Below are positions 5,418-30,693 of a stretch of 32,993 nucleotides of DNA, in pieces. The DNA is from Methanobacteriota archaeon (GTDB taxonomy: Archaea; Thermoplasmatota; Poseidoniia; Poseidoniales; Poseidoniaceae): assembly GCA_018662825.1 (NCBI GenBank), contig JABJFI010000116.1:1-32993 (forward strand). The letters run 5' to 3'. The first letter of the stretch is position 1. Each line of letters opens with the position of its first letter. The notes under the pieces are model-generated. The model saw only the letters and a program-made list of their open reading frames with translations, was not told the origin of the DNA and made no database searches. Position numbers and translations under genes: made by a program.

Positions 5418-5505
5418 ACATTGCTCACAAAGATGCTCCTTTTCAACTCTTGTAATCGCCGTAGAAAGAGTAAGGGTGATAGATGACGCCTCACAGCGTT
5501 TGAAT

Positions 5506-6252
5506 ATGGCAGTCGACCGTATGCAATGGGGAGCGCAGGAGTGGCAATTTGCGGATTTGTACATGCCTGATGACCCTTCACCGTATCAGAAGGATGTAGG
5601 AATACCTTGTATCATGCTTATTCACGGAGGTTTTTGGAAAAAATCTTGGACCAGTGACTTGATGAAACCGATTGCACAAGACCTTGCGCAAGCAGGTGTT
5701 GCAGCGTGGAATATCGAATTCAAAGGTTGGAGTGAAGGTGATGAGGGGGTTTGGATGGATACACTCTCAGATGTGTTACGGGCTTGGGGTCAACTTGCAC
5801 TGCTTCCAGGAATCGATATCACTCGCTCAATGGTCATGGGTCATTCAGCAGGTGGTCATCTTGCACTTTTACTAGCGGCAAAAGCCGAAAGGAAACCTTG
5901 GTTGGCCATAGCTCAAGCACCGATAACAGATTTAATTGGTGCAGACCATGCTAAACTTTCTGATGAGGGAGATGCTGTTCGCCGATGGATTGGTTGCAGC
6001 CCCGAAGATAATCCTACTGTGTGGGAACAACTCAATCCGATTAGCCACCCACCTGTTGCCCCCGTATTGCTCATCCATGGTGAGAATGATGAAGAAGTCC
6101 CAAAGGAACAATCCGAAACCTATGCGCGTATCATGGCTGCAAAGGGTGCTGATGTCCAGAAACTGTGGCTCCCTGGCGGCCATTTTTCGATTATAGATGT
6201 TGCATCGGATGATTGGTTAGTTGAATTAGATGCGATTCTTGATTGGCTTTGA
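5506..6252 (+). CDS. Alpha/beta hydrolase, kynurenine formamidase/esterase-like
   Basis: MLIHGGFWKKSW (oxyanion HGGFW), nucleophile elbow MGHSAGGHLALLLAAK, LLIHGENDEEVP acid region, LPGGHFSIID His. Start placed at ATG 5506; the longer ORF start at 5293 would overlap the GPx gene. Confidence 0.82.
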   Translation: MAVDRMQWGAQEWQFADLYMPDDPSPYQKDVGIPCIMLIHGGFWKKSWTSDLMKPIAQDLAQAGVAAWNIEFKGWSEGDEGVWMDTLSDVLRAWGQLALLPGIDITRSMVMGHSAGGHLALLLAAKAERKPWLAIAQAPITDLIGADHAKLSDEGDAVRRWIGCSPEDNPTVWEQLNPISHPPVAPVLLIHGENDEEVPKEQSETYARIMAAKGADVQKLWLPGGHFSIIDVASDDWLVELDAILDWL

Positions 6253-6292: not shown

Positions 6293-7108
6293 ATGGACCT
6301 CCTTGGTAACGACTTCCCGTATTCTTCCGATGCTCTAGTTGGCAAGCATGCATTGGTGTGCGGTGCAAGCAAAGGTATTGGAGCGGCGACTGCCAAAATG
6401 CTGGCAAAAGCAGGTGCAAGCGTAACAGTTTGTGCTCGCAACGGTGAGGCTTTAATCGCACTTTGTGAAGAATTGTTTGAACTTGGGAGTGGTGAACATT
6501 CATCTTTAGTTCTCGACCTTGAAGATACCACTGAAATAAAAAATGGAATTGAATTATTACTTGAAGAACGTGGACCAGTTCATGTGTTGATTAACAATGC
6601 AGGTGGGCCACCCGGTGGCCCTTTGCTTGAAAATTCAGTTGAAGATTTTGAAGCACCATTCAAGCGCCACCTTCATGCGGCTCATACATTAACGCAATTA
6701 TTGGTCCCGACAATGGTCGAAGAAGGGTATGGGCGCATCATACAAATCATCTCGACTTCTGTCAAAGAACCAATTCCAAATATTGGACTTTCCAATACTC
6801 TACGCGGGGCAATGGCTTCATGGGCGAAGAGTTTGTCACGGGAACTTCCACCTTGCATCACCATTAACAATGTCTTACCTGGTTTCACCAACACCGAACG
6901 TTTGGATTCACTTGCCTCCTCCATTCATCAGCGAACTGGAAAAAGTATCGAAGATGTTCATGAAGGTTGGCTGAGTCAAGTTCCAATTGAACGATTGATT
7001 GAACCTTTGGAAACCGCATCGGCTATTGCGTTCCTTGCATTGCCGGCATCCGGAGGAATTCGCGGCGTTAGTCTTGCCGTAGATGGTGGCCGATTGCGGA
7101 GTATTTGA
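6293..7108 (+). CDS. Short-chain dehydrogenase/reductase
   Basis: HALVCGASKGIGAATAKMLAKAGASVTVCARN, VLINNAGG, C-terminal FLALPASGGIRGVSLAVDGGR. The usual YxxxK region reads SNTLRGAMASWAKSLS, so the Tyr appears replaced. Confidence 0.85.
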   Translation: MDLLGNDFPYSSDALVGKHALVCGASKGIGAATAKMLAKAGASVTVCARNGEALIALCEELFELGSGEHSSLVLDLEDTTEIKNGIELLLEERGPVHVLINNAGGPPGGPLLENSVEDFEAPFKRHLHAAHTLTQLLVPTMVEEGYGRIIQIISTSVKEPIPNIGLSNTLRGAMASWAKSLSRELPPCITINNVLPGFTNTERLDSLASSIHQRTGKSIEDVHEGWLSQVPIERLIEPLETASAIAFLALPASGGIRGVSLAVDGGRLRSI

Positions 7109-9081: not shown

Positions 9082-10332
9082 ATGGAGCATGATATTTTCT
9101 TCTCAATAAGTCAAACTCCGGATTCAACGGGTTTGATTCCAACTGAGCAAGAAATGTTTGCAAATTATTTCCAGCAACTTGAGTGTGCTGATAAACTTGG
9201 ATTTGGCGTAGGGTGGCTTGCACAAGCACATTTGTCGACTGAAATTCAAAAATCTAATTCAAAGCCAGTCGTTCCGCATTGGCAGGGTGAAGTTGGACTT
9301 TGTACCGATTTTCCACAATTAGCAATGGAATCGTTTAGAAGGACAAAATCCATCGAAATCGGAAGTGCTGTAGTCTCAATTTTGGCCTCTGGTGGCCCGA
9401 TTGCCCAAGCGGAAAGGATTGCTAATACACTCCTCTTGCACGGCCTCAATCAAGATGAAAACCGTAAACTCCATGTTGGATTTTCAGCAGGTCGCTTTGA
9501 ATTCATGGCTCGCCCATATGGTATAATACCTCGGAATTCGATTGAGGAAGCGGCATGGCCGGCTTTGCGCGGTCAAATATTCTTAGAAGCAAGTGACATC
9601 TTTTTGCGGCTCTTACGCGGAGATGTTATTAATTCCGAAATGACCTATTCGACCGTCCTTAGACGCAGTAATTTTCGCAGTGATGAAGATTGGGGAAAAG
9701 TTCAAAACGCTGCCGTAGAGTTTGAAAACTTAGCATCTGCTCCTGATGAAATTGAAATTCCAAAACGCTACATCTTTGAAGACTTGAAGATAATACCCCA
9801 AGACTTCCGCAAGGATTTGTTGGTCATGGTTGCAGGCACTCATGACCCAAAAGCGCAGGTATTTCTCAACACAATTTCACCCGTTAAAGTATTCAATTTA
9901 TCAATCACAAAACCAGAAATTATTGACGCAACTCACGAACGAATGAGTGAAGTGTACCATGATAATGGTGGGGCATGGAAGAGAAGTGACATGCCACGAA
10001 CATCTTTCGTGTTTCTAAATGCAGAAGAAAATCTAACTTCCGAACAGCAAAGCGTTGCTGCAAAACAAGAAGCAAAATTAGCACTTGGTGCTTATTGGAA
10101 TGCATTAGAGGGTACTATCGACCCCTTGAAAGTAGAGAATGCCGCTCATAATGCATTGATTGGAAACATCGATGAAGTGGCCCAGCAAATTTGCGAACGC
10201 TTCCATCCTGAAGATCGGATTATGGCTTGGTTTGATTTCTTTAATCATGACTCGCAACGAGTCTGTAGAAATATGACCGCTTACATGAATCAGGTTGTAC
10301 CTTTAGTCGAAAAAATGCTTGCAGAGAGGTGA
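9082..10332 (+). CDS. LLM-class (luciferase-like) flavin-dependent monooxygenase
   Basis: MEHDIFFSISQTPD..., ADKLGFGVGWLAQAHLSTE, IEIGSAVVSILASGGPIAQAERIANTLLLHGLNQDENRKLHVGFSAGRFEFMARPYGI. Start placed at ATG 9082; ORF track start is 9046. Confidence 0.8.
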   Translation: MEHDIFFSISQTPDSTGLIPTEQEMFANYFQQLECADKLGFGVGWLAQAHLSTEIQKSNSKPVVPHWQGEVGLCTDFPQLAMESFRRTKSIEIGSAVVSILASGGPIAQAERIANTLLLHGLNQDENRKLHVGFSAGRFEFMARPYGIIPRNSIEEAAWPALRGQIFLEASDIFLRLLRGDVINSEMTYSTVLRRSNFRSDEDWGKVQNAAVEFENLASAPDEIEIPKRYIFEDLKIIPQDFRKDLLVMVAGTHDPKAQVFLNTISPVKVFNLSITKPEIIDATHERMSEVYHDNGGAWKRSDMPRTSFVFLNAEENLTSEQQSVAAKQEAKLALGAYWNALEGTIDPLKVENAAHNALIGNIDEVAQQICERFHPEDRIMAWFDFFNHDSQRVCRNMTAYMNQVVPLVEKMLAER

Positions 10333-10336
10333 AAAA

Positions 10337-11452
10337 GTGGCAATTGAACACGATACGCCTTCAGCAGTTGAACCTGGTAATCCTGGCAGTTCACTGTTTC
10401 CAGATTCGCCGCTTGGAGAAAAGGTCGAAGGAATTCCAACTGGTCGTGAAGTAGCATGGGAACCGTTGGTAGATTATCGTCGAAACGGTGTTTCAGAAAC
10501 CACTATTCATGGAGCCATCGCTTGGTCCCATGGTGATGAAGTCATCCACTCCTTTGGTGGAAATGTGCTGTGTTATGGTCGTTCAATGATGAAGCCATTT
10601 ATGCTCAAAGCATTCACTGAAGAGTTGGAGGATACTTCTTGGGAGCAAAAAGCGATTGCTGTTGCTTCTCACAATGGCGATACGGAGCATGTCGCTGCAG
10701 CTCAATCACTTCTTTCCGAAGAAGAATGGCCACTTATGCTTACACCATTGGATGTTCCATTGATTCAATTTGGACGTCAAGTTCGACGTCCTCGCCGCTG
10801 GTTCCACACATGTTCTGGCGAGCATGCTGCTATCCTACATGGATGTCGTAAGAAAGGATGGAATCGAGCAGGATACACCTTGCCCACCCATGAAGTATTC
10901 AATGCCTACATGGTAGAATTGCGTACATATCTTGGTCAGGACTGGAAACCCTTGCGTATTGCAAAAGATGGATGCGGTCTCCCTACAGTATCAAACACCG
11001 TTGCAGAACTTGCTCAAATCTATGCAGGATTGGTTCGTGATAAGGACAAAGATTGGATCTGGGAAGCCATGGTTCGACATCCTGATTTAGTCGGTGGTTT
11101 CAATCGTCTTGATTCGACTGTTCTCAAGGCAGGAAAGGGCAAGGTCATCGCCAAAGAAGGGGCTGATGGCTTGCTTGGACTGGCGATTGAACACCCAGAT
11201 TACCCCAAAGGTTTGGGAATCGTCGTCAAGATTGCACATGGCTGGAATTCTCAAGCGATGTGGTATGTCGCTCGTGCCGTACTCGGAGTACTTGGAATTG
11301 ATTTGCGCAATCCCTATCCGTTGCATCGTCAAAAAGCATTCATTGTACCAGGCATTGTTCCTGAACATTACTTGGAGCGACTTGAAACATTGCCAACATG
11401 GGATGAATGGGACCCTGACCAAGACCGTTGGTTGTATGATGTGGAGGCATGA
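10337..11452 (+). CDS. L-asparaginase II/AnsA-like (Rhizobium etli-type) amidohydrolase
   Basis: MMKPFMLKAF, VASHNGD, CSGEHAAILHGCRKKGW, AKDGCGLPTVSNT, VIAKEGADGLLGLAI. GTG start at 10337 is preceded by gagaggtga; ORF track start is TTG at 10319. Confidence 0.8.
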   Translation: MAIEHDTPSAVEPGNPGSSLFPDSPLGEKVEGIPTGREVAWEPLVDYRRNGVSETTIHGAIAWSHGDEVIHSFGGNVLCYGRSMMKPFMLKAFTEELEDTSWEQKAIAVASHNGDTEHVAAAQSLLSEEEWPLMLTPLDVPLIQFGRQVRRPRRWFHTCSGEHAAILHGCRKKGWNRAGYTLPTHEVFNAYMVELRTYLGQDWKPLRIAKDGCGLPTVSNTVAELAQIYAGLVRDKDKDWIWEAMVRHPDLVGGFNRLDSTVLKAGKGKVIAKEGADGLLGLAIEHPDYPKGLGIVVKIAHGWNSQAMWYVARAVLGVLGIDLRNPYPLHRQKAFIVPGIVPEHYLERLETLPTWDEWDPDQDRWLYDVEA

Positions 11453-12912
11453 ACATGCTCAGCATCCAGAATTTTATTGATGGTTCTTTTCATCATGCTG
11501 CTGATGGCGAATTCCTCGAAGATTTCAATCCAGCTACAGCACAATGTATTGCCACCATTCCGCGTTCTAAGTCTGTAGATATTGAACCGGCTGTAGCCGC
11601 TTGTCAGGCTGCACAATCTGCTTGGAGTGCATTATCTTTGGACCAACGTGCTGATTGGCTGGACCGAATTGCTGATGCTCTTGAACAAAAAGCAGAGCGT
11701 ATTGCTCAACTTGAATCAATGGACACTGGTAAACCAATCGCATTATCTCGACGAGTTGATGCCGCACGCTCAGTCAGCAATTTCCGGTTTTTTGCATCAT
11801 TTGGTAGAGAGCAATCCGAACTGACCTTTCAAATGGAGGATGCAATGAATTATGTTCACCGTTCTCCTGTTGGAACTGTAGGTCTCATCACACCGTGGAA
11901 CCTTCCCCTCTACTTGTTGACTTGGAAAGTTGCTCCTGCCCTGCTCATGGGAAATACAATCATCGCCAAACCAAGCGAAATTACACCTCTTACCGCCAAT
12001 CTATTGGCCGAAACATTACTTGAACTTGAATTTCCAAAGGGTGTGTTCAATCTTGTCCACGGCCTCGGCCCTGAAGTCGGACAAGCCATTCTCGAACATC
12101 CGGATATCAAAGCGATTTCATTTACTGGAGGCACTGAAACTGGACGAATTGTTGCTCGAACTGCTGCACCAATGTTCAAGAAATTATCTCTTGAACTCGG
12201 TGGGAAAAATGCAACTATAGTGTTGAAGGATGCTGAGCTTGACAAAGCGGTTGATGGTGCGGTTCGTGCAGCGTTTACCAATTCTGGACAAGTGTGCCTT
12301 TGCGGTTCTCGGATATTTATTGAGGCAAGCCTCGAAGAAGAATTTACTCGCCGATTTATCGAAAAAGTCAATGCTCTTCAAATCGGCGACCCTCAGGATG
12401 AAAATACAAACATGGGAACTGTCATCTCACCGGAGCATTTGATGAAAGTTGAATCATACATCAATTTAGCAATAGAGGAGGGGGGAGTTATCCTAACCGG
12501 TGGCACCCGTGCAATGACTGGCTACAATGGACCAGAAGGAATAGGTGCATATTTACTCCCAACGGTTGTCGGAAATCTCCACTATACTTCTCGGTGTGCT
12601 ACGGAAGAAATATTTGGGCCAATGGTGACATTACATGCATTCACAAGTGAAGAAGAGGCTTTGGAGATGGTGAATTCTTCCGAATATGGTCTTGCCGGTT
12701 CTGTTTGGACCAATGACCTAGAACGTGGAAGGGCGTTTTCTGCTCAAATAGATTCGGGAATTGTTTGGGTGAACACATGGCTTCATCGAGATTTACGAAC
12801 TCCTTTTGGGGGTGTCAAAAATTCTGGCGTAGGGCGAGAAGGGGGGCGTTGGTCTCTGGATTTCTTTTCTGAAATGACCAATGTGTGTATCAAGAAGCAC
12901 GATTCCAACTGA
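11449..12912 (+). CDS. Aldehyde dehydrogenase resembling 2-aminomuconate/2-hydroxymuconate 6-semialdehyde dehydrogenase
   Basis: GTVGLITPWNLPLYLLTWKVAPALLMGNTIIAKPSE, SLELGGKNATIV, NSGQVCLCGSRIFIE, WLHRDLRTPFGGVKNSGVGREGG. ATG overlaps the preceding stop (ATGA at 11449..11452). Confidence 0.88.
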   Translation: MNMLSIQNFIDGSFHHAADGEFLEDFNPATAQCIATIPRSKSVDIEPAVAACQAAQSAWSALSLDQRADWLDRIADALEQKAERIAQLESMDTGKPIALSRRVDAARSVSNFRFFASFGREQSELTFQMEDAMNYVHRSPVGTVGLITPWNLPLYLLTWKVAPALLMGNTIIAKPSEITPLTANLLAETLLELEFPKGVFNLVHGLGPEVGQAILEHPDIKAISFTGGTETGRIVARTAAPMFKKLSLELGGKNATIVLKDAELDKAVDGAVRAAFTNSGQVCLCGSRIFIEASLEEEFTRRFIEKVNALQIGDPQDENTNMGTVISPEHLMKVESYINLAIEEGGVILTGGTRAMTGYNGPEGIGAYLLPTVVGNLHYTSRCATEEIFGPMVTLHAFTSEEEALEMVNSSEYGLAGSVWTNDLERGRAFSAQIDSGIVWVNTWLHRDLRTPFGGVKNSGVGREGGRWSLDFFSEMTNVCIKKHDSN

Positions 12913-14445: not shown

Positions 14446-15360
14446 ATGGGTTCATCCATGTCGAAGGGTGAAATTGTCGCAGGTTGTATAGCACCTCACC
14501 CACCACACTTGGTTTATGCAGAAAATCCTCCACAAAATGAACCGAAATCTGAAGGCGGATGGGAGCAGTTGCGTTGGGGCTATGAACGGCTACGGGAATC
14601 GCTTGCTGATGTCGAATACGATGCAATTGTGTTGCTTTCTCCACACTGGCAAACATATGTTGGAACACACTTCTTGGGATTGCCTCACTTCAAGAATCTC
14701 TCCGTAGACCCTGTATTTCCAAATTTATTTCGCTACAATTACGACCTTGAAATCGATGTCGATTTGTCTCGACAAATCCATGATAGGGCTAGTGAAGCAG
14801 GCTTAGCTGTCAAAATGATGGAGAATCCCGATTTTCGGGTAGACTATGGGACAATTACAACCGGACATATGTTCAATCCTGTGTGGGATAAGCCATTGGT
14901 TGTCATCTCTAGTAATCGTTCAAGACACTATTACTCGGTTGAAGTCATGCAAGAAATGATGATTGAATTAGGACGAGTAACCCGTGAAGCAATTCTGGCA
15001 AGTGGAAAAAAAGTTGTTGTTATAGCAAGTAATTCTCTCTCACATCGACATTTCACAACTGAATCAGCAATACCTGAAGACATGAGTAAAGAACATATCA
15101 CTAGCCATGCCATGCATTTGTGGGATATGCGAATGATTGACTACTTCCGCTCTGGACAAGCCCAACGCATCCTCGATGAAATGCCAGAATTCACTGAACA
15201 AGCCATCGCAGAAAGTGATGGCGGAGGTCTTTCATGGCTACTTTCTACACTCGACGTGCCATCTTACCCAGCAATTCTACATGGATATGGAACGATTATC
15301 GGTACTGGAAATGCAATTGTTGAATGGCCTGCTCGAAACTATAAGGAGGCGAGTGAATGA
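14446..15360 (+). CDS. LigB-type class III extradiol ring-cleavage dioxygenase, catalytic subunit (2-aminophenol 1,6-dioxygenase catalytic-subunit-like)
   Basis: IAPHPPHL (His18), LLSPHWQT (His67), NSLSHRHF (His200), AIAESDGGGLSWLL (Glu256): spacing matches the LigB fold metal ligands and catalytic His. Alternative start 14458. Confidence 0.85.
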   Translation: MGSSMSKGEIVAGCIAPHPPHLVYAENPPQNEPKSEGGWEQLRWGYERLRESLADVEYDAIVLLSPHWQTYVGTHFLGLPHFKNLSVDPVFPNLFRYNYDLEIDVDLSRQIHDRASEAGLAVKMMENPDFRVDYGTITTGHMFNPVWDKPLVVISSNRSRHYYSVEVMQEMMIELGRVTREAILASGKKVVVIASNSLSHRHFTTESAIPEDMSKEHITSHAMHLWDMRMIDYFRSGQAQRILDEMPEFTEQAIAESDGGGLSWLLSTLDVPSYPAILHGYGTIIGTGNAIVEWPARNYKEASE

Positions 15361-16781
15361 GTGACGGAGAATTAATTGGCTCGTATATTGTTCCAGTTCA
15401 TCCTCATACCGTTTTGGTTCCAGAACAAAACGAAGGATGGGGGCGATTACGTGATGCCTTTGAAGACGCAGCACAACGTATCAAAGACAGTGAGGCAGAC
15501 CTTTTGATCATCTATTCCACAACTTGGCCAAGCATCATTGGACACCAAATCATTTCAGACCCGAACCCAGAATGGGTGATGGTTGACAATGACTTCCATG
15601 ATTTAGGCTCTATTCCATATTCCTTCAATATCGATGAAAATTTCGCTCATGCTTGGAACGAAGCAAATCAAAAACGAGGTCTCAAAAGTCGAACTATTGC
15701 TTACCATGGATTCCCTATCGATGTTGGCTCAGTTGTTGCATTAAAACTCCTGAATCCAGATAATGCAATCCCTGCAGTAATCGTTTCATCGAATGTATAT
15801 TCAAATCGTGCAGAAACTACGGTTTTAGCAAAAGCATGTATGGATGTTGTCAAATCAACTGGAAGAAAGGCAATCGCAATTGCGGCTATGTCCCTTTCCA
15901 ATCGAATGTTTACCAAACCCATTGAACCAAAAGATGACCGAATACATTCACTCAAAGATGATGAATGGAACCACAAAATCTTAGAATTCTTAAGTGAAGG
16001 ACGGCTTGAAGATGTTGGTCAGTTATCTCGTACTATTCATCAACAAATTAGAGTAAACAAAGTGGTTACATTCAAACCGATGTGGTGGCTTTCAGGAATG
16101 AATCAAAATCGAAATGATTTGACTGGCGAGGTCCTTGCCTATGAAGCACTTCATGGTGCAGGTGGAGCAGTAGTTCATCTAGACCCTGCCCCCTCAGGGA
16201 CTGGTGATAAGGAATACGATGAAGATGATGTAGAATATTTCTCTGGTGAACGAAATGTATTGGATGCAGAACAATCTGCGACTGAAGAACTTGTTTCAAA
16301 CGATTCTGATACTGGCGATAAGATTGAGCAAAATGGTCCTGCTCTTTGGGAACCTACAGAAAGCGAAGATTCCGTAAATAGCGCGGCTGCACCCAAACCA
16401 GTAGGTGCGTACCCACATGCGCGCCGTGTTGGAGATCTGCTCTATCTCTCCGGCGTCGGTCCACGCCAACCAGGTACAAACGCAATCCCCGGTGGTCCAA
16501 TACATGATGAAAGTGGAACGACTTTAGATTATGATATCAAAGCTCAAACTCAAGCAGTTATCGATAACATAACTCGCATTCTTGAAGAAGCAGGTGGTTC
16601 GATTGATGATGTACTCGATGTCACGACCTTTTTGGTTGATATGGACCGTGATTTCCAAGGCTATAATGAGGTCTGGGCTGAAACACTTGGCCAAGTTGGA
16701 CCAACTCGAACAACACTCGCGATTCGCGCCCTCCCTACTCCGATTGCCGTTGAAATGAAGGTCATTGCCAAAGCCCGGTGA
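15357..16781 (+). CDS. Inactivated LigB-like dioxygenase subunit, acidic linker, C-terminal RidA/2-aminomuconate deaminase-like domain
   Basis: N-terminus GSYIVPVHPHTVLVPEQNEGWGRLRDAF, YSTTWPSIIG, IAAMSLSNRMF aligns to the preceding ORF; acidic linker about 16190..16385; RidA domain KPVGAYPHARRVGDLLYLSGVGPRQPG...DVTTFLVDMDRDFQGYNEVWAETLGQVGPTRTTLAIRALPTPIAVEMKVIAKAR. ATGA overlap with the previous gene. Confidence 0.85.
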   Translation: MSDGELIGSYIVPVHPHTVLVPEQNEGWGRLRDAFEDAAQRIKDSEADLLIIYSTTWPSIIGHQIISDPNPEWVMVDNDFHDLGSIPYSFNIDENFAHAWNEANQKRGLKSRTIAYHGFPIDVGSVVALKLLNPDNAIPAVIVSSNVYSNRAETTVLAKACMDVVKSTGRKAIAIAAMSLSNRMFTKPIEPKDDRIHSLKDDEWNHKILEFLSEGRLEDVGQLSRTIHQQIRVNKVVTFKPMWWLSGMNQNRNDLTGEVLAYEALHGAGGAVVHLDPAPSGTGDKEYDEDDVEYFSGERNVLDAEQSATEELVSNDSDTGDKIEQNGPALWEPTESEDSVNSAAAPKPVGAYPHARRVGDLLYLSGVGPRQPGTNAIPGGPIHDESGTTLDYDIKAQTQAVIDNITRILEEAGGSIDDVLDVTTFLVDMDRDFQGYNEVWAETLGQVGPTRTTLAIRALPTPIAVEMKVIAKAR

Positions 16782-16871: not shown

Positions 16872-18545
16872 ATGGTTGGATTTCGGGGATTGAGGATGCC
16901 AATTGATACAGCCGGAAAAATACTCAAAGGTGACCTGAAAGGGGCTATGAAGGATGTTGGTAAAGGAATTGAGCGTACACTCGGATTATCCGGCGTAATC
17001 ATAATTTCACTATCGGCAATGCTCGGTTCTGGCCTGTTTGTTTTGCCCTCCATGGCTGCAGAGTTAATGGGGGATGGAATGTGGTTAGCCTACGTACTTG
17101 CCGCAACAGTCGTACTACCTGGGGCGATTTCCAAATCGGAAATGGCATCAGCCTTACCGGTATCTGGAGGTACGTATGTGTATGTCGAACGAACCTATGG
17201 ACCTCTGATTGGAACCATTACTGGGTTAGGATTGTGGGCTTCATTCCTACTCAAGGCTTCCTTTGCCCTGATTGGACTCTCAGCATACATGTATGCTTTT
17301 ACATCCTTTTTTGACCTTCAATTCAATACAATTAATGTTTCACTCTCAGTTTTAGTTTTGATCGTCGTGATTAATATTCTCGGCGTCAAAAAGATAAAAT
17401 CCATTCAAGCACCAATTGTTGGTTCAGCCGTTGTGTTCCTCCTTTTGCTTTCGATTGCTGCCTTATTTATGGACTCCACGGAGTTATCACGACCCGGTAA
17501 AGCGGCATTTGAGGCTGATTCGTTACTCTTAGCAGAAACCGCAGCACTTGTCTTTGTAGCCTATGCAGGAGTCACCAAAGTTGCTGCAATTGCTGGCGAA
17601 ATAAAAAATCCCGGGACGAATCTCCCGAATGGGATGTATTTTTCACTCCTGTTTGCGACCTTATTGTATGCAGGTGTCTCCTATGTATTGATGGCTGCAT
17701 TACCTGACCAGTGGTGGATTCATGATGGCCATACTGCTCAAGATCCGATTTACATCTTCGCCACACACGTAGGCGGGCAAACAATTGGTCTCTTAGCTGC
17801 ACTTCTTGCGATATTTACCATGGCCTCGATGGCTTTAGCAGGAATTTTGGCATCGTCTCGATATCTTTTCGCCATGTCAAGAGACAGTTTGTTACCTCAA
17901 TTATTTGAAGATTTGAACCCAAAGTGGGAAACTCCCCATTGGGCTATTATCATTACAGGTGTTATGATGGCTTTTGCAATTCTCTTTTTACCAGTCTACG
18001 ATGTTGCTAAACTTGCTTCTGGATTCCAAATCATGGTATTCATTGTCATTAACTCATGCGTGATAGTCTTACGTCAACTCAAATCAAATATTGATTGGTA
18101 TGAACCAACCTACAAAGGGCCGTTCTATCCTTTCATCCAAATATGGGGGATCGTTGCCGGAATTGTACTTATTTGGTTGATGGGAGAAAAGGCGTTTATT
18201 GGCGCTGGTGCTGCAATTCTCATTGGCATGGGCACTTACTATGGTTACGGTAAAAATCATGCACATCCTCGTGAAACTCCTTTTGAGACCTTCCGAAAAC
18301 AATTCACAAACCCAAGTAAAGCGGAACATGACCGACGGGTTGCGGTCTTCCACGCTGCAGACCTTGGTGGTAAAAATCACCTAACACTCAGCGAGTTCCA
18401 ACATGCCTTGGAGTCTCTGGACTTCAATTTCAGCAACGATGAGTCAAGATTAATTTTCCATAAAGCAGACATCAACAGCGATGGCTTTGTCGACATTGAT
18501 GAATTCGTCACGACGTTTGAAAATAATATCCTAGAAGAGGAGTGA
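16872..18545 (+). CDS. APC-superfamily amino acid/polyamine permease with C-terminal EF-hand pair
   Basis: Start of APC core GLSGVIIISLSAMLGSGLFVLPSMAAELMG, many TM segments; C-terminal soluble tail with canonical EF loop DINSDGFVDIDE and a degenerate first hand DLGGKNHLTLSE. Confidence 0.88.
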   Translation: MVGFRGLRMPIDTAGKILKGDLKGAMKDVGKGIERTLGLSGVIIISLSAMLGSGLFVLPSMAAELMGDGMWLAYVLAATVVLPGAISKSEMASALPVSGGTYVYVERTYGPLIGTITGLGLWASFLLKASFALIGLSAYMYAFTSFFDLQFNTINVSLSVLVLIVVINILGVKKIKSIQAPIVGSAVVFLLLLSIAALFMDSTELSRPGKAAFEADSLLLAETAALVFVAYAGVTKVAAIAGEIKNPGTNLPNGMYFSLLFATLLYAGVSYVLMAALPDQWWIHDGHTAQDPIYIFATHVGGQTIGLLAALLAIFTMASMALAGILASSRYLFAMSRDSLLPQLFEDLNPKWETPHWAIIITGVMMAFAILFLPVYDVAKLASGFQIMVFIVINSCVIVLRQLKSNIDWYEPTYKGPFYPFIQIWGIVAGIVLIWLMGEKAFIGAGAAILIGMGTYYGYGKNHAHPRETPFETFRKQFTNPSKAEHDRRVAVFHAADLGGKNHLTLSEFQHALESLDFNFSNDESRLIFHKADINSDGFVDIDEFVTTFENNILEEE

Positions 18546-18714: not shown

Positions 18715-21372
18715 CTATTCGCCCCGGGTCCAAGAACCATCAGCACCAACGTTCCAATATTGTATTTCACTGCTGACATCGACATACCAACCGCTTGACC
18801 CTTGTTCAGTTCCTGGTGCTGCTTGCATTACTCCTACATCCGCAGCTTGTTGAGCCAAAGAAGCGCGTAACTCATCGGTCAAGGTAATACCCGATTTATC
18901 ATCTGCCACAGAACTGTCTTCTTGCAGTTCTTCTGTAATGACGTCCTCTTCATCCTCGAATTCGTCTTCATATTCTTCATCATCCTCGAAGGCATCTTCA
19001 ATCCATTCATCTTCTTGTTGATTTGCTCGCCGAACTAAAACGACTAATGTGACAAGTATGAGGGTTAACAAAAATATTCCCAACCCCATTGCAGTATTTG
19101 TTGAACCGACAGCCCCTCCAAGAAGAACTGCTTCAACATCAAAATAATTTTGTGAGATGAGACCATTCCAAAGAACGTTGCACGAACGGTCATTACCAGC
19201 CGAAGACACATCTAATTCCCAAGTATCAGAAGTGACATGTTCTGCAGAACCAGATGTACAACTGACAGTGGTATTTTTGGCATCGACATCTACGATGTTA
19301 TCAAACATATCAATACCTTGAACACGCAACAAAACTGTATCGCCTTGTGCAATACTTTGGTCTTCAATCGAAGAAATGAGCCGTACAGCATCACCAGGCT
19401 CTACTGTAAGTGGAATACTGTGCGTCGCACTGTCTTGAACCAGTTCAAGGGAATATTCCCCTGATGTTTGACCAATAAAATCCCAATACCCATTGCCCGA
19501 TGAAGAGGCTTGTAAGGTTCCGAATTGAGACTCTAATGTAGTGGTTACCTCTGTTGAAGGAGCGAGATTTCCATGCGCGTCAATAGTTTGGATAATTAAT
19601 TCACTGGCCACACCAGCTTGCACTGTCAAACCATCTTCCACATTGGTGATGAGATTACGTGCATCACCTGCAACGACAGTCAATCGAATTGTTGCGAAAA
19701 CGCCATCCGCATTTGCTCTAATCTCATGACCTCCGACCTCTGTTGGATTCCATTGGAGGTCTGAAAGAAGAATATCTACGGTTGCATCCAAACCATCAAC
19801 AGTCCAATTCAATCCAATTTCCTCTAAAGGATTGGAAAAAGCGTCAAAGAATAATGGTTCGAGTGCTAAAGCAGTATCTGATGGCAAAATTTCACCTTCG
19901 CCGTTTAATTGTATAAAGGCTAGGCGCCCTGGAAGAGATTGAGTTTGCAATACAGGTTCAAAGCGCGTATCAGTCGCAAAATCAAACCAAGAACCTTCTA
20001 ATCTCCATATCATGGTTTGTTGAGAAGTAATGGTTGCATATCCATTGTAAGCAATAAATTGAGAGTCATTTCCATTTATCATGGTCACCGAACCATTCAC
20101 CATCCATTCATTGCCAATGACGTCAATTGCTGTGAAAAGAACTGTGCTTTGTTCTCCGGCTACCAAAGACGGTGATGAAAGTTGCAAGAAGGTATCAATG
20201 GCATTACCATGAATCACTTCAACCATCAAAGTCGATACAACACCATCATCGACTACTCGTAATTCATGCATCCCCATTGCACCAGGTGACCAATAAACTG
20301 CATCGTTCATGGATGTTAATCCTCCACTGGTCACTGAGAAATTTTCAAGAGGTGGGGTGATAGTTCCAGTATATCCTTGTGAATCCGTACGCATTGCAGC
20401 AATTTCATAAGATGCGCCTGCGGTGAATTTTTGATCTTCTGACAAAACTACAACTTGGGAAAGTGCAGCATTAGCAGGGACGACTCGTATCATTCCGGCA
20501 CCAGTTATATTACCTGCTGAAACACTGATATTCCAATATCCTGGATGTGATGCAGTAAACCAACCGGAAGGTATGATGCTGCCATTTTCAACAGTCCAAA
20601 TTCTATTGCCTGCTTCAGTTATGTTCATCTCGAATCCATTGATGTCCAAAAGATGAGGTGAGATGAAGATTGAATGTCCGCTTCGAACCTGCAACCCCTC
20701 GTCAAAGGTGAATTCATACGGATTTCCAGCTGTAACTTGAATGGTTGCAACATGTTCCATTTGATGGAGTCGAGCGCGGATTGTGTAATTACCGACATCT
20801 TGGGGTGTCCATGAAGGGCTTCCAATTCCAACATAATTACCATCCACAGTCCATGCCGCATTTTGTGAAAATTGTGCATTACCCCGCGCATCGAGAAGAT
20901 TGGCAGTGAGGAATACTGGGACCAGCGCCTGGGCATCCAAACTTGTGATATCGAGTGATTGTCCGGCACCTGCAGTAACTGTAATGTTAAAGGAGCCAAT
21001 CAATCCATTATGAGTTGCTTCAATAGTGATTACTCCAGAACTCCAAGGGTAAAAGATTCCATCAGAAGAAATAGAACCATTGGAACTACTCCACACAACC
21101 TCTCCAGATGCAAGGTTATTGACTGAGTCGTATAATTCAGCCGAAAACATGGTGACTTCATCTGCAGAAAGAGTGGCTACATCTGCAATAACTTCAACCC
21201 TAACTGGTGTTCCAGCACGAGAAATTATTCCATTATCATCAAATGAAGGTGTGGTTAGTACAGGATGAATACTATGAAACGTAAACAAGATGATACATAG
21301 GGCGCAAAGCATGTTTCTCCTAAGATAACTCAAGGTTCGCATGATTACACCTTTGCCTTCAACATCTATCAA
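18715..21372 (-). CDS. Type I-like surface protein with tandem bacterial Ig-like domains, C-terminal TM and acidic cytoplasmic tail
   Basis: N-terminal hydrophobic segment MLCALCIILFTFHSIHPVL; repeats of VTAGxxxxL...WTVDG...W.P...G.Y.I.A; TM MGLGIFLLTLILVTLVVLV followed by EDEWIEDAFEDDEEYEDEFEDEEDV and terminal WYVDVSSEIQYWNVGADGSWTRGE. Confidence 0.85.
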   Translation of the reverse strand: MIDVEGKGVIMRTLSYLRRNMLCALCIILFTFHSIHPVLTTPSFDDNGIISRAGTPVRVEVIADVATLSADEVTMFSAELYDSVNNLASGEVVWSSSNGSISSDGIFYPWSSGVITIEATHNGLIGSFNITVTAGAGQSLDITSLDAQALVPVFLTANLLDARGNAQFSQNAAWTVDGNYVGIGSPSWTPQDVGNYTIRARLHQMEHVATIQVTAGNPYEFTFDEGLQVRSGHSIFISPHLLDINGFEMNITEAGNRIWTVENGSIIPSGWFTASHPGYWNISVSAGNITGAGMIRVVPANAALSQVVVLSEDQKFTAGASYEIAAMRTDSQGYTGTITPPLENFSVTSGGLTSMNDAVYWSPGAMGMHELRVVDDGVVSTLMVEVIHGNAIDTFLQLSSPSLVAGEQSTVLFTAIDVIGNEWMVNGSVTMINGNDSQFIAYNGYATITSQQTMIWRLEGSWFDFATDTRFEPVLQTQSLPGRLAFIQLNGEGEILPSDTALALEPLFFDAFSNPLEEIGLNWTVDGLDATVDILLSDLQWNPTEVGGHEIRANADGVFATIRLTVVAGDARNLITNVEDGLTVQAGVASELIIQTIDAHGNLAPSTEVTTTLESQFGTLQASSSGNGYWDFIGQTSGEYSLELVQDSATHSIPLTVEPGDAVRLISSIEDQSIAQGDTVLLRVQGIDMFDNIVDVDAKNTTVSCTSGSAEHVTSDTWELDVSSAGNDRSCNVLWNGLISQNYFDVEAVLLGGAVGSTNTAMGLGIFLLTLILVTLVVLVRRANQQEDEWIEDAFEDDEEYEDEFEDEEDVITEELQEDSSVADDKSGITLTDELRASLAQQAADVGVMQAAPGTEQGSSGWYVDVSSEIQYWNVGADGSWTRGE

Positions 21373-21384
21373 AGATATGGCGGA

Positions 21385-24300
21385 TTAATCCGTCCATTCG
21401 CCCCATTCAGTATCGCCTTCTTGGCGGTACCACCATGTGCCATTTTCATCTTCAGCCCATTCGGTTCCATCATCATCTACGCGATGTTCAACTTGCCACG
21501 ATGTATCATCGGCAGTAGCCGTCGTAATTTCCGGAACTGACTTTGCTTCAGGTGCAGGGCCAGATGGCCCTGGTGCTGGACTAGATGACTCATTATCATC
21601 TTCGTCATCATCTTCATCATATGAATAATCCTCATCGTCATCATAATCTGAACCTCCACCACGAAGGGTAGATACAAGCAAACCAAGAATCACAAGACTC
21701 ACAATTGCAATGAGAACAGCACCAACATAGTAAAGCGCCCCTCCTGCTTTGAAGAATCCGCCTACGTTTCCTTCGACTTGAACGGCTCGTTCCTCAGAAA
21801 CTGTTCCTGCAGTGATGGTAATCGTTTGTGGACCATCATCGAGAGTCACTATATTCCAAACACCTTGACCTTGATTCAATACTTCTGCACGACCTGTTGC
21901 ATCAACATCTGCACTCGAAGGAATTGGTATAGGGTTGAGATATTTATCAAAAGCCTTGACGGTCACAGTGAAACTGCCTAATTGGTCAATGGATTCAGAA
22001 GAAAGTTCAACCGTAAGTGAATCCACAATATACAGTGGGTCTACAGAAATATTTTCCCAACTTTCGACAATGCCTGTCGAGTAAACTAAAGTGTGTGTTC
22101 CAGCAATAGTGGCGGTGTAGATGTACGTACCATCGTCTTGGCCAGCTGTAATGTTTTCAACAGTAACTCCATCTTCAGACCATTCCACAAGTTGTGGGAA
22201 TGTGTTTCCATCAGCGTCTTGACCTGTGATGACAAATGAAATTTGACCGCCAGCAGTTTGTTCACTGGTGTCAAGAATGGCCGATATAACAACTGCTTCA
22301 CCATGATGAACCACCATAGTCACTTGGTCGCTGACATTGAAGCCTGCATCGTTGATAGAAGAAGCGGAAATACTCCAATTACCAACGCCTGAGGCTCCCC
22401 AACGCATGTCGTCATTCAGTAAAGAATCCGTAATCAGTTCCACTTCACCTGTATCAAGATTGGTGAGATACCATGCCAAAATACTCGAGTCAATTGTATT
22501 CATATCCAAATCATAGAGTTCTGATGAGAAGTCGATGTATTCATCGGCTGTTAAGTCAAACGCTGTATTTGAAGCACCATCCGAGCCTGCGGCAGAAATG
22601 ATGACTGAATTCAAATCGCCATGTGATACAGACACATTGATGCTCACATCGTGTTGGAGAATACCATCATTGTAACTAGCAGTAATTGTATAAGGAGTCT
22701 CTGAAGCATAGTATGGAACAAATGTTGTTTCATCGCCTGTCAATTGTTCGAGGAATGATTGTGATGACCATTCAGGGTGTTCAATTAACCAGTTTGCAGA
22801 AACTATCCATCTGTTATCCTTCTGGTCATATGCCTTCACTTTGATATCAATGATATCATCTGAAGTAATGTCAAATGATTCCCATGTGGAGACATTATTG
22901 TCAACAATCAAGAGTAACGAAACAATTGCTCCTGCTTCAACAGTGATAGTAATTTGAGCAGAAATGGTTTCATAAGTTGCTTCAAGGATTTTTGCACCCC
23001 GAGAGGTTGGAGTCCATATTGCTGGCGCACCAACCAGCAATTCACTGTCCTGTGGAGTCACCCATTGGTCGGAATTAAGCAATACTGGCAAACGGTTTCC
23101 TCGTATATCGATACGAGTCGTATTGATCCAAACCTGCTCATCGGCAGTAATGGATGTCGAGGAAGATGCGAGTTCCAAACTCGCCATTTGACCATGGCCA
23201 ACTGTAAGCAACAGAGAACCTCCAGCACCAGATGTGGAGGTTAGATTCAAATGCCATACGCCAATGTGATCGGGGAAATATTCACTTGAAGTTTCACTGT
23301 AATTTCCATTTGTAGTCGTCCACGTAAGGTCACCTGCTTCACTGACATCAATAATTTCATTACCAAATTGGTCATACAATGTGTGGGTCACCGCACACCA
23401 AATCCCTGCAGGAACTGTTCCTTGGCATCCTTCAACTACAAAGTAAGAAGGAAGTCCTGTTTCGACAGTGATGGAAACCGTGGTTGTTTGAGTTGTGCTG
23501 GTTAGGTCCACCCAAGAGACTTGAACGGTTTGAATTCCACTTGCATAAGGAATGAACAAACCTTCTGTACTCGAATCCATACTACCATTGCTTGGCAAAT
23601 AGTTGATGGTTTGTCCTGAAACTATGTTTCCATTTTGGTCAACCACTGATGCTACAATCTGCAGAGAATTATCTGCAGAGATTGTTGCCGATTCGGGATT
23701 AACAACCAATTCAACAGGTGCACCAGGTGTAACCGTAACGATTTCGCTAGAACAAATTATACCGAAACATGCCGAAATGGTGTGCTGGCCAACTGCATAT
23801 GGGGTAAAGACTCCTGTTTGTGAGATGCTTCCATTTGTAGCACTCCAAACAACAGGCGCATTGATAGCCATGGTCAAATGGTCGTACGCAGCATAAGAAA
23901 AGGTCACAGAAGTATCTGCATCTGTCGATGGAGCTGTCGGCGTCAAATCAATTGAGGTCACATTAGTGTGATTCAACAATATTTTCGGCCTGTTGTCTTC
24001 CAAGCCATTTTCGCTTGATACAAAGTTAGCAAGTAATGTTCCACGGTTAGGAGTGGCAATAATAATCCAAGCATTGTCGTTGTCAATTAGCATTCCATTA
24101 ACTCCAATGTCGAACCATACCCAACGCTTATCGCTCATGTCAGAATCAACGAAAGTAGAAATTGGTGTAGCATCATAATCGATACCTGCTTGCATTCCAG
24201 GGGCACCCCATGCGCCTGAAGAAGCAGTGGATGAAGCATTCCATGTCGAGGAGGATTGAGCCCATTGACTGTTAATAATTCGATGAACACTAAATGTCAT

Positions 24301-27300
24301 TTCATTTGCCCCGCCAGTGAAAAGCCAGGAATCCAGATAAAGTCCAATACTTGCAGAATGGATATTTGAAAACGCAGGCAGAGGGACTTGGCTGTTATCT
24401 AAAGCAAAGGTGAATCTGGCTTCCATACCAGCATTGGCACCGGAGTAGGTACCCAATTCTACGAGTGCAGCATCGCCAAAGTTTGTTGTAGGATTAACTT
24501 CACTGAGATGTGTTTCGCGAATATTTGTATGGCCAAATTGCATTACTTCGTTACCGGTTTGGAAGGTGTATGTATAGGTGAGGTCGCTATTATCGGCATG
24601 ATGAGGGTCTCCGATGGCAAAACTCCAACGAGAGGAAGAAGGCCCAGGAATTGATTGATTGACACCTTGTACCCACCAAGTAAATACTTCACCAGTAGTA
24701 AGAGAATCGGTAAATCGGAATGTATTACCGATAATTTCATTCGCTTCCCAAGAATTGAATTTGTAGACACCAGTTTCATTTGCAATCGTCACGACATATC
24801 CTGTCGCCCCACTGACTGCTGACCATGAAAGAACTGGCTTGTCGTCGGGTTGCAAAGTTGGAGCAGAGATGTTGTAGAGTACTTGTCCATCTTGAGGTGA
24901 TGTCAAAACAGGTTGTGCAGGTGGTTGAATACCATTGACGTTATCGACATACTGTACAACTAATCGAGGACGGTAATCTTCATTGCTTCCTTCTGATGAA
25001 TAGAACGCATGGCTGGTTGAAGGAGTCCCTACTGATTTCAGCAGAATTGTCATCGTCAGATTTCCGTTTGCCACATTGCTTTGAGCAAGACTGGTGAGGT
25101 CCCATTCGACCCAGCCAGATGCTGGAGTGAGGGTAAGGGTCGAGCGAGTGATTTCACTTGTCATACAAGGAACATTGGTGTTCCAAGTAACTGAAGATTC
25201 GGAAAATGTTGAACATGCATGTGCCGAAATCGTAGTTGATGTCGTCCCGGTTACGCTAGTTCGATACATTCCTAGAATCATCGATGTTGGAGTCATGGCT
25301 GTTGGCCAAGGCATTGAACTCAAATCAAATTCAAGATAAATCTGACTTTCTCCCGTTCCAGATGAAGAAGTTCCTAGATTAAGTTGAGTCGCCGAGCCAA
25401 TATTGCCTGTTGCTGAAGAGGAAATTTCTGCATCGGGGACATCGGGGAGAAGACCTGTTTGCGAGAATATGGAGCCACGGCTAACTTGAACAGTATAGTT
25501 CCCTAATCCATCTGTGAAACCTTGATCTTCTGGAATACGGAATTTCTGAACATTTGACCAGTGCCCGATTCGGCCATCTTGGTCACCACGAACACGCCAA
25601 TATTTCCATTCGTCACCTTTCGTAATATTCGTAGCTGACAAAGTGAGGTTTTGAACATCCCAAGTCGCATTGAAAGTACTACCATTCACTACTAAATTCG
25701 AATCGAAGCATTCTAAATCTTGAGTCATTCTACCTTCGGAAGAACCACACAGAACCCAACTGGTGTGATTGCTATCTCCAGATGACCAATTTGCATCTAC
25801 AACTTCAGTTCCACTTGGAGTTGATGCTGAAAGATTCCAAAGTGTCGAGCCATCTACAGGAACCATATTTGTTGGATTAGAAGGAGACCATGGTGATGTC
25901 AACTCATAATTCATGGTAAGTTTCGGGCGGTCTGAAATGCTTGAGTATTCACTGCTAGCAATATAGTATGTGCCATCGATTGTACCATCGATTTCTTCTG
26001 GTTGAATAATAATATTCAGACTCTCTTGCCCTCGTTCAATCGCATGTTGAAGTATTGCAGTGACGTTTATTTCAAAGGTACCGGTGCCATTAATCCAAAA
26101 TCCACTTGTTTCGGGAATCTCGCTATCGGCCGAATGATACGCTCCAGTACCCATCCATGAGGTAGTATTGTTACCAGGATGAGACCAACTTGAAGATTCA
26201 TCCCAGCCAGTAATCATTTCAGAAACAGTGACGAATATATCATCGGAACCTGCAACAACGCTGATTTCCAAAGTAGCATTATTGATTTCATACGATGAAG
26301 GGAAAGGAAGTGATGAGAAATCCATTTCAATCAAAGTTGTAGACTGCAGAATACTATTTGTTGAACTTTGACCAACTGCAAGATATGATGAGCCACCATT
26401 ATTTGCAAGTGAATTACCTTCATCCAAAGTGGTGTCTTGAGTAATCATTGGATACAATTCTGATTCGACAATTGCACCCTCTTGAAGAGAAACCCAAGCA
26501 TGTGTGGAATCAATTTCAGCAGCATCTGTATCTGGTATATGGAATATAGTTGAGTTACTTTGTGGGCCAATCATACCGGCTTGAACAGGTTGAACGGTCC
26601 AGCGTATGGTTTGTGCGTGGTTCAGAGAAGAGGTTGGAGTGAACGTGAGGTTCTGCAAATCAAATAAGGTCGAGTCAACACGTGAATCATAGGTGTAACG
26701 ACCTGCCATATCGTCATCTGCATCCTCAAAAATATGCACTCGCCAAGCATCGACTGAATTCGAGGAATTGTGAGACCAACTGAATTCTGGCGTGTCATTT
26801 GGTATCAATGCATGTGAATTAGTGTCCCATGAGAACGAATTATTTGCTGGTCCAATGTTGATACCAGTCGAAGTTGGAACTGGACTTGTGCCGTTGGACC
26901 AAGTCAAATTGAGCCATGGATGTTGACTGGAAAGTCCTTCGGTTGAGGTAAAGGTGATTACATTCGGTCCGTTTGAATAAGCTGTTATATCATTGGATGC
27001 ATATACCGCCAATGATAGTGTCGAAGAACCAGAGTCCAAAGCCGCCTGTACTGCTTCACTGACATCCCAAGTCATCCAGCCAGCACTGACTGAATCTTGC
27101 AAATCAACATATGGTCCAAGGTCGACACCGAGGTCTCGGCCACCAAGTTGCGACCAATTATTGGTTCCATCATAGGTTGTATCGTTTGCGCTCGTTGTCC
27201 AGTTTTGATACACTGGGCGAACAGCAATTGGTTCTCCTGCAGTGGAAGAAAATTCAGAATAGAGGCTCATTTGAGCAGAGGTGACCCGAGCATTAATTGG

Positions 27301-30555: not shown

Positions 30556-30693
30556 ATACTGTCTTTTCCCTTCCGTGCCTATGGGCCCCCTTTCAAGAAT
30601 ACAAAAAAATAGCCAATAACAATACATTTCCTACTTTGATTTTCTTCGATAAAAAGGAGAATGTTCAAGGAGGCTCGGCAATGACATCCATGC

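Follow-up and report, generated by a model that had tools for sequence, protein, structure and literature searches.

The window analysed here is the whole stretch of 32,993 nucleotides of contig JABJFI010000116.1 (assembly GCA_018662825.1), which comes from an archaeon of the family Poseidoniaceae (Marine Group IIa; family f1 below). An open reading frame (ORF) of 474 amino acids (aa) at 15357-16781 encodes a LigB-like domain, a linker and a RidA domain in one protein, and its coordinates and frame are exact. This ORF very probably represents the alpha subunit of a 2-aminophenol-type ring-cleavage dioxygenase fused to the deaminase of the same pathway. It stands in a conserved gene cluster that probably connects the fusion to tryptophan breakdown.

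Domain architecture of the fusion protein

Both domains score above the curated Pfam cut-offs (LigB at aa 17-268, 9.9e-12; RidA/L-PSP at aa 344-472, 2.6e-23), so that the two-domain ORF proposed from the letters alone in the original prediction is borne out. The same holds for the suggested likeness of its first part to the ligand-free subunit of 2-aminophenol 1,6-dioxygenase: the best PDB match is 3vsg_A (2.7e-38), the alpha subunit of a 2-amino-5-chlorophenol/2-aminophenol 1,6-dioxygenase. The loss of all four active-site positions, originally noticed in the window, extends to the relatives. Alpha columns 18, 67, 200 and 256 have V/T/N/Q as majority residues, 119 of 120 archaeal rows have Asn at position 200, and the metal-ligand positions are replaced in all loci aligned. 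The acidic low-complexity linker of the original prediction stood only in part. Its variable segment is confined to residues ~305-337, the predicted local distance difference test score (pLDDT) drops below 50 at residues 297-332 in a single-chain structure prediction of the fusion, and the distance between the end of the alpha domain and the start of RidA ranges from 45 to 113 aa among fused loci. Residues ~281-304 (GDKEYDEDDVE..GERNVL) are instead a conserved tail of alpha, which is kept in 13 of 13 aligned fusions and also forms the C-terminus of the stand-alone alpha protein (~311 aa) of species in which the two genes are split.

The best PDB match of the RidA part is the 2-aminomuconate deaminase AmnE (6izh, 9.9e-25). 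In a RidA tree, for which the program warned of long branches, all archaeal domains, fused and split, form one clade (100/99) with AmnE and the RidA proteins encoded on bacterial amn plasmids, to which generic RidA structures do not belong. The deaminase type proposed earlier is thus supported by the tree, which places the domain in a clade separate from generic housekeeping RidA and rules out the latter identity. The archaeal domains and AmnE also share the Lp2 loop insertion, which generic RidA proteins lack. The equivalent of AmnE Lys135 is Lys in 35 of 36 rows, the remaining row being ambiguous; Arg117 is conserved, and a PH motif occupies the place of SQ in generic RidA. Arg56, a hexamer contact of AmnE, is not conserved in the archaeal domains, where Asn, Lys, Ile, Glu or Gln is found. 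Since this residue is also missing from several RidA proteins of bacterial amn plasmids, we consider it a trait of AmnE that does not define the family.

The ORF immediately upstream, whose end overlaps the start of the fusion by 4 bases, is by its sequence the beta subunit that carries out catalysis, and none of the four active-site residues is missing. It matches 8ihg_A (1.9e-109) and 3vsg_B (7e-105), and columns 18, 67, 200 and 256 are H/H/H/E wherever the residue is aligned (111-116 rows). Beta and alpha are adjacent in complete loci. From this adjacency and their family membership, the alpha part of the fusion is predicted to partner this beta protein as structural subunit, the assembly typical of the enzyme being alpha2beta2.

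Distribution and history of the fusion

In an order-level search, 182 of 194 genomes gave a match. Within Poseidoniaceae the match is nearly always one full-length frame. The sister family (f2) is mostly split, with fused forms in g14, two g18 genomes and one g21 genome; in its split loci, alpha and RidA are adjacent on the same strand and overlap or abut. A third family of the same class (f3), which we read as Marine Group III, is split. Outside the class Poseidoniia, the full fusion is present in genomes G217 and G247, from two other Thermoplasmatota families, at 52-53% identity. A single joined frame was seen in 99 of the loci examined. The fusion, for which the original prediction had asked for a search across marine archaeal genomes and had named occurrence in one assembly only as a ground for doubt, therefore proved to be widespread. 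Bacterial occurrence was covered by one peptide-pattern scan of GTDB contigs, in which 79 of the 80 kept loci come from metagenome-assembled genomes (MAGs) of Poseidoniales-type archaea. The remaining contig (L100), labelled as a Rhodobiaceae bacterium MAG, bears a Poseidoniales fusion at 76% identity and is probably misbinned.

On a tree of alpha and beta rooted by bacterial plasmids, the fused and split states require at least five changes, fused forms being basal (G217, G247) and also present in Poseidoniaceae. Fusion and fission have likely occurred repeatedly, and the tree leaves the direction of change undecided.

Gene neighbourhood

The cluster around the fusion (Table 1) includes an alpha/beta hydrolase, a short-chain dehydrogenase/reductase (SDR), a luciferase-like protein (Lux), an asparaginase homologue (AsnII) and an aldehyde dehydrogenase (ALDH). 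The commonest gene order, found in 28 loci, is hydrolase - SDR - Lux - AsnII - ALDH - PanB - beta - alpha-RidA - permease. In fewer loci the hydrolase-SDR pair is relocated and inverted as a unit. The core SDR-Lux-AsnII-ALDH-beta-alpha-RidA is retained in Marine Group III and G217, and in G247 the SDR gene lies downstream of the fusion.

Table 1. Features of the fusion ORF and its gene cluster in the window
Feature	Position	Strand	Basis
Alpha/beta hydrolase, travels with SDR; candidate formylkynurenine formamidase in Poseidoniaceae	5440..6252	+	Pfam BD-FAE 2.1e-20
SDR, conserved cluster member	6293..7108	+	Pfam; conserved neighbourhood including Marine Group III, G217 and G247
Lux, luciferase-like flavin monooxygenase; proposed Baeyer-Villiger oxygenase on kynurenine	9082..10332	+	AlphaFold2 model, Foldseek, distribution
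AsnII, class-3 (type II) asparaginase homologue; proposed beta-aspartyl ester/anilide hydrolase	10319..11452	+	PF06089, 8cly/7os3, Ser-Lys dyads, distribution
ALDH, probable 2-aminomuconate 6-semialdehyde dehydrogenase	11449..12912	+	Closest PDB sequences
Predicted catalytic beta subunit of 2-aminophenol 1,6-dioxygenase	14446..15360	+	8ihg_A, 3vsg_B; His18, His67, His200, Glu256
LigB-like domain, predicted non-catalytic alpha subunit of 2-aminophenol 1,6-dioxygenase (aa 1-280)	15357..16196	+	Pfam LigB, PDB 3vsg_A, metal-ligand positions
Conserved acidic C-terminal tail of alpha (aa 281-304)	16197..16268	+	Motif alignment of fused proteins; end of stand-alone alpha
Disordered variable linker (aa 305-337)	16269..16367	+	pLDDT and length variation
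RidA domain, 2-aminomuconate deaminase clade (aa 338-474, then stop)	16368..16781	+	PDB 6izh AmnE (1e-25), tree, residues and loop insertion
APC-type amino-acid permease with C-terminal EF-hand pair; possible importer	16872..18545	+	Pfam, gene order

Among PDB sequences, the seven closest to ALDH are without exception 2-aminomuconate(ic) 6-semialdehyde dehydrogenases (AMSDHs; 4u3w, 4.6e-140). Its best-scoring model is that of 2-hydroxymuconic semialdehyde dehydrogenase, but the score lies below the cut-off of this model. Because the closest solved relatives of alpha, beta, ALDH and RidA all belong to the 2-aminophenol/2-aminomuconate pathway, each of the four proteins points independently, at the level of sequence, to this pathway.

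Lux has no Pfam or NCBIfam family at E <= 0.01. Its AlphaFold2 model (pLDDT 85.7) retrieves luciferase-family monooxygenases with Foldseek (E 6e-13 to 1e-9), including the type II Baeyer-Villiger enzymes 4uwm/5aec; such enzymes belong to the luciferase-family fold (PMC4631483). A homologue with 45% identity is encoded on a Streptomyces clavuligerus megaplasmid (L185, 14908-16191) with no AsnII/asparaginase or dioxygenase genes around it, so that Lux is not always tied to a 2-aminophenol pathway.

AsnII matches PF06089 (1.1e-46) and the PDB entries 8cly/7os3. Its residues Ser89, Lys92, Ser117 and Lys279 are invariant in 76 sequences. By the residue equivalences taken from alignments of AsnII to its PDB matches, they correspond to both Ser-Lys dyads of ReAV, the class-3 L-asparaginase of Rhizobium etli (PMC8602277). 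The Cys-Lys-Cys zinc site is not retained, as Glu or Gln stands in place of its Lys. Both zinc-ligand Cys residues and the Lys are missing from the Marine Group III proteins (L141-L145; NSSGQHAA, DGDGLPT/DGDGFPT), which suggests a zinc-free variant of class-3 asparaginase.

In most loci of Marine Group II the permease gene is next to the fusion, and the EF-hand pair of the permease is recognized by Pfam (EF-hand_7, 1.9e-9); a calcium-binding domain on an APC-type permease is, to our knowledge, unusual. An FAA-hydrolase-family protein is present once per genome in most Poseidoniales tested. Farther along, on the minus strand, the window encodes two repetitive proteins (18715-21372, 885 aa; 21385-30627, 3080 aa), whose C-termini bear a membrane segment and an acidic tail, and large proteins related to them border the cluster in many relatives.

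Co-occurrence with tryptophan 2,3-dioxygenase

Co-occurrence was assessed in 390 Thermoplasmatota genomes, 135 from Poseidoniia and 255 others. Tryptophan 2,3-dioxygenase (TDO) is present in 128 of the 135 and 11 of the 255, and Lux in 129 and 2, respectively. Outside Poseidoniia, strong alpha and beta matches together with an AsnII orthologue and Lux occur only in G217 and G247. Lux, AsnII and alpha/beta share one distribution, in company with TDO. In Marine Group III (L144, L202) the TDO gene is the immediate neighbour of the cluster; in G247 it lies ~1.3 kb upstream of Lux. G217 has a gene for a KynB-type cyclase immediately 3' of the fusion, and in G247 such a gene lies within ~0.5 kb of the fusion. 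This association of the cluster with TDO indicates a 2-aminophenol derived from tryptophan, and we consider tryptophan/kynurenine to be its probable source, one that the original prediction did not mention.

Of 31 cluster-bearing genomes tested for kynureninase, G013 alone scores above the cut-off. In two genomes that have TDO but lack the cluster (G222, G235), a class-V pyridoxal phosphate (PLP) enzyme is encoded beside TDO (L201, 8047-9138; L209, 1501-2616). Because the scores of this enzyme are split about equally between the kynureninase and SufS models, the argument that Lux displaced a TDO-adjacent kynureninase is only suggestive. What the cluster-bearing genomes encode is a TDO-initiated route without its usual middle enzyme, and two strictly co-occurring proteins, Lux and AsnII, are present instead.

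Proposed route

Kynurenine is an ortho-aminoaryl ketone of a C4 amino acid. In the route that we propose, TDO would convert tryptophan to N-formylkynurenine, from which a formamidase would release kynurenine. No kynurenine formamidase is found among the PDB matches of the clustered alpha/beta hydrolase, which is only a candidate for this step in Poseidoniaceae. As kynureninase is missing, Lux is proposed to act on kynurenine, inserting an oxygen beside the aryl ketone (Baeyer-Villiger reaction with aryl migration). The resulting 2-aminophenyl ester of aspartate would be expected to rearrange to N4-(2-hydroxyphenyl)asparagine. With a beta-aspartyl ester or amide as intermediate, AsnII would suit the next step, the hydrolysis of this product to L-aspartate and 2-aminophenol. 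Beta and the fused alpha would then cleave the ring as a dioxygenase complex. Finally, the RidA domain and the clustered ALDH would remove nitrogen from the ring-cleavage product, yielding 4-oxalocrotonate (or 2-hydroxymuconate semialdehyde) and ammonia. Such a Baeyer-Villiger/asparaginase route would account both for the presence of Lux and AsnII and for the missing kynureninase; we give this conversion of kynurenine to aspartate and 2-aminophenol about an even chance. For the reading as a whole, in which the fusion is the bifunctional subunit of a 2-aminophenol-cleaving complex forming the lower half of a tryptophan route via Lux and AsnII, we estimate a probability of roughly 0.6. No description of the Lux/AsnII route or of the fusion was found in the titles and abstracts of the open-literature papers searched, a coverage outside which subscription journals lie.

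Several observations weigh against this reading. In Poseidoniaceae, TDO is encoded outside the cluster (in G000, on contig 99). KynB was found in none of the 15 Poseidoniia genomes tested, in which the formamidase is a candidate only. A canonical kynureninase does exist in G013 (L208, contig 29, 1501-2718; 3.4e-127); the GC content there is 0.62, close to the 0.595 of another contig of this genome, and recent transfer and contamination are both possible. Luciferase-family proteins catalyse varied reactions, so that Baeyer-Villiger activity of Lux is not readable from its fold, and its identity to the Foldseek matches is only ~13-15%. No flavin reductase partner for Lux was identified, no search having been aimed at one. 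The DmpG-type 4-hydroxy-2-oxovalerate aldolase domain (PF07836) is absent from 18 of 18 archaea and present in both control plasmids; since the positive controls scored, the archaeal lower route differs from that of bacteria, and we reject the canonical lower meta pathway. In addition, the fusion bypasses the dehydrogenase step, and sister lineages and close relatives manage without it.

Purpose of the tether and alternative explanations

Bacteria use the deaminase of this pathway only after the aldehyde dehydrogenase has acted, and the fusion thus ties the first step to the third. With the deaminase and not the dehydrogenase as the partner of the first enzyme, either all three enzymes (dioxygenase, ALDH and deaminase) would be assembled together, or the RidA domain would deaminate the semialdehyde directly, ahead of the dehydrogenase. 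A larger assembly could also arise from the union of a two-fold dioxygenase with a three-fold RidA. Part of the 2-aminomuconate semialdehyde formed in bacteria cyclises to picolinic acid (PMC3790839), and the tether probably limits such a loss of the unstable intermediate. The ARO bacterial microcompartment of Actinobacteria holds the same enzymes inside a protein shell proposed to handle unstable intermediates (PMC10470539). By analogy, the fusion is plausibly another way of keeping these enzymes together. It is tempting, if slightly beyond what we would wager on, to see in Marine Groups II and III a new tryptophan branch in which Lux and AsnII replace kynureninase and the fusion complex takes the containment role of the ARO shell.

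Direct deamination would swap two steps relative to bacteria: the dioxygenase product would pass to RidA, releasing 2-hydroxymuconate semialdehyde and NH3, and only then to ALDH, by which the formation of picolinate would be prevented. The choice of fusion partners fits this order, as does the best score of ALDH, albeit below the cut-off, with the 2-hydroxymuconic semialdehyde dehydrogenase model, and the variable residue at position 56 means that the domains may assemble otherwise than in the AmnE hexamer. The acid is the substrate of known 2-aminomuconate deaminases, however, and the ALDH sequence is nearer to AMSDHs among solved structures, which makes this order of steps rather unlikely. 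Equally unlikely, in our estimation, is a fusion that arose as the neutral outcome of overlapping adjacent genes and fixes stoichiometry with no functional advantage. Such an origin would agree with the overlapping or abutting alpha and RidA genes of all split archaeal species examined, with the number of changes on the tree and with the variable length of the linker. It accords poorly with the persistence of the fusion across a whole family and in distant families despite large sequence divergence, and with the conservation of the acidic tail ahead of the linker.

Two other explanations concern the substrate. The complex might take 3-hydroxyanthranilate, supplied by a conventional kynurenine pathway, as its substrate and so be an analogue of 3-hydroxyanthranilate dioxygenase; its product would then be decarboxylated and passed on to AMSDH and the deaminase. 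TDO would be expected here too, and the relatives of ALDH include AMSDHs of the 3-hydroxyanthranilate route. Yet this pathway requires the cleavage of 3-hydroxykynurenine, kynureninase stays below the cut-off in 30 of the 31 cluster-bearing genomes, and Lux and AsnII would be left without a role despite a distribution matching that of the dioxygenase. Judged by TDO, kynureninase, Lux and AsnII, 3-hydroxyanthranilate is an improbable substrate. Still less probable is a cluster that degrades environmental aminophenol or another aromatic compound with no link to tryptophan. Bacterial amn/cnb clusters do serve xenobiotics (PMC3790839), and the position of TDO outside the cluster in Poseidoniaceae would be explained; against this stand the near-complete co-occurrence of TDO, its adjacency in Marine Group III and the presence of KynB by the fusion in two other families. 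Lastly, despite isolated reverse-looking cases, one with alpha and RidA separated by a single in-frame TGA (L157/G069) and one apparently fused locus of family f2 that looks frameshifted (L147/G034), an assembly or frameshift artefact is refuted and chance excluded by the recurrence of one open frame in the 99 loci, from many separate assemblies including the closed-chromosome record CM001443.

Few uncultured plankton of the surface ocean are as abundant as Marine Group II archaea, whose metabolism has been read solely from genomes. The fusion is a real, conserved and new architecture of a known enzyme system, and the surrounding cluster suggests an undescribed tryptophan route. A nearly order-wide 2-aminophenol pathway tied to TDO would make the ring-opening breakdown of aromatic amino acids a core trait of this group. 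If true, the route would also provide a physiological source of 2-aminophenol, a source stated as unknown in the work on the ARO microcompartment (PMC10470539). It further offers a directly testable replacement of kynureninase and a natural fusion with which to study how cells handle a self-cyclising intermediate.

Comparison with known systems

The 2-aminophenol 1,6-dioxygenases AmnAB and CnbCaCb (3vsg, 8ihg, 7txy) resemble the archaeal pair in having a beta subunit with His/His/Glu ligands and a catalytic His, a ligand-free alpha subunit and neighbouring genes for the two. The archaeal system differs in its host, in an alpha extended by the conserved acidic tail and the deaminase domain, and in Lux and AsnII as gene neighbours. 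The deaminases AmnE (6izh), AmnD and NbaF belong to the same RidA-fold clade and share the extra Lp2 loop, Arg117, Lys135 and the PH motif in place of SQ; in the window's family the deaminase is fused to the dioxygenase alpha subunit, and the hexamer-forming Arg56 is not conserved. Bacterial amn/cnb meta-cleavage clusters likewise combine dioxygenase, AMSDH and deaminase, whereas in the archaeal clusters no DmpG-type aldolase was found, Lux, AsnII and SDR are present instead, and the source is probably tryptophan.

With the kynurenine pathway the archaeal system shares TDO and, in two genomes, a KynB-type cyclase by the cluster; kynureninase is missing, and the proposed substitute is a monooxygenase with an asparaginase homologue. 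By Foldseek, Lux has the fold of 3,6-diketocamphane monooxygenase (4uwm; PMC4631483), at ~13% identity and beyond the reach of Pfam and NCBIfam models at the threshold used. AsnII retains both Ser-Lys dyads of ReAV (7os3; PMC8602277) but has Glu in place of the zinc ligand Lys138, and Gln in Marine Group III, where both Cys are also absent. In the ARO microcompartment, finally, the same dioxygenase, dehydrogenase and deaminase are held together by encapsulation in shell proteins, and the text of that paper names no luciferase or asparaginase (PMC10470539), whereas in Poseidoniaceae the dioxygenase and the deaminase are joined by covalent fusion.

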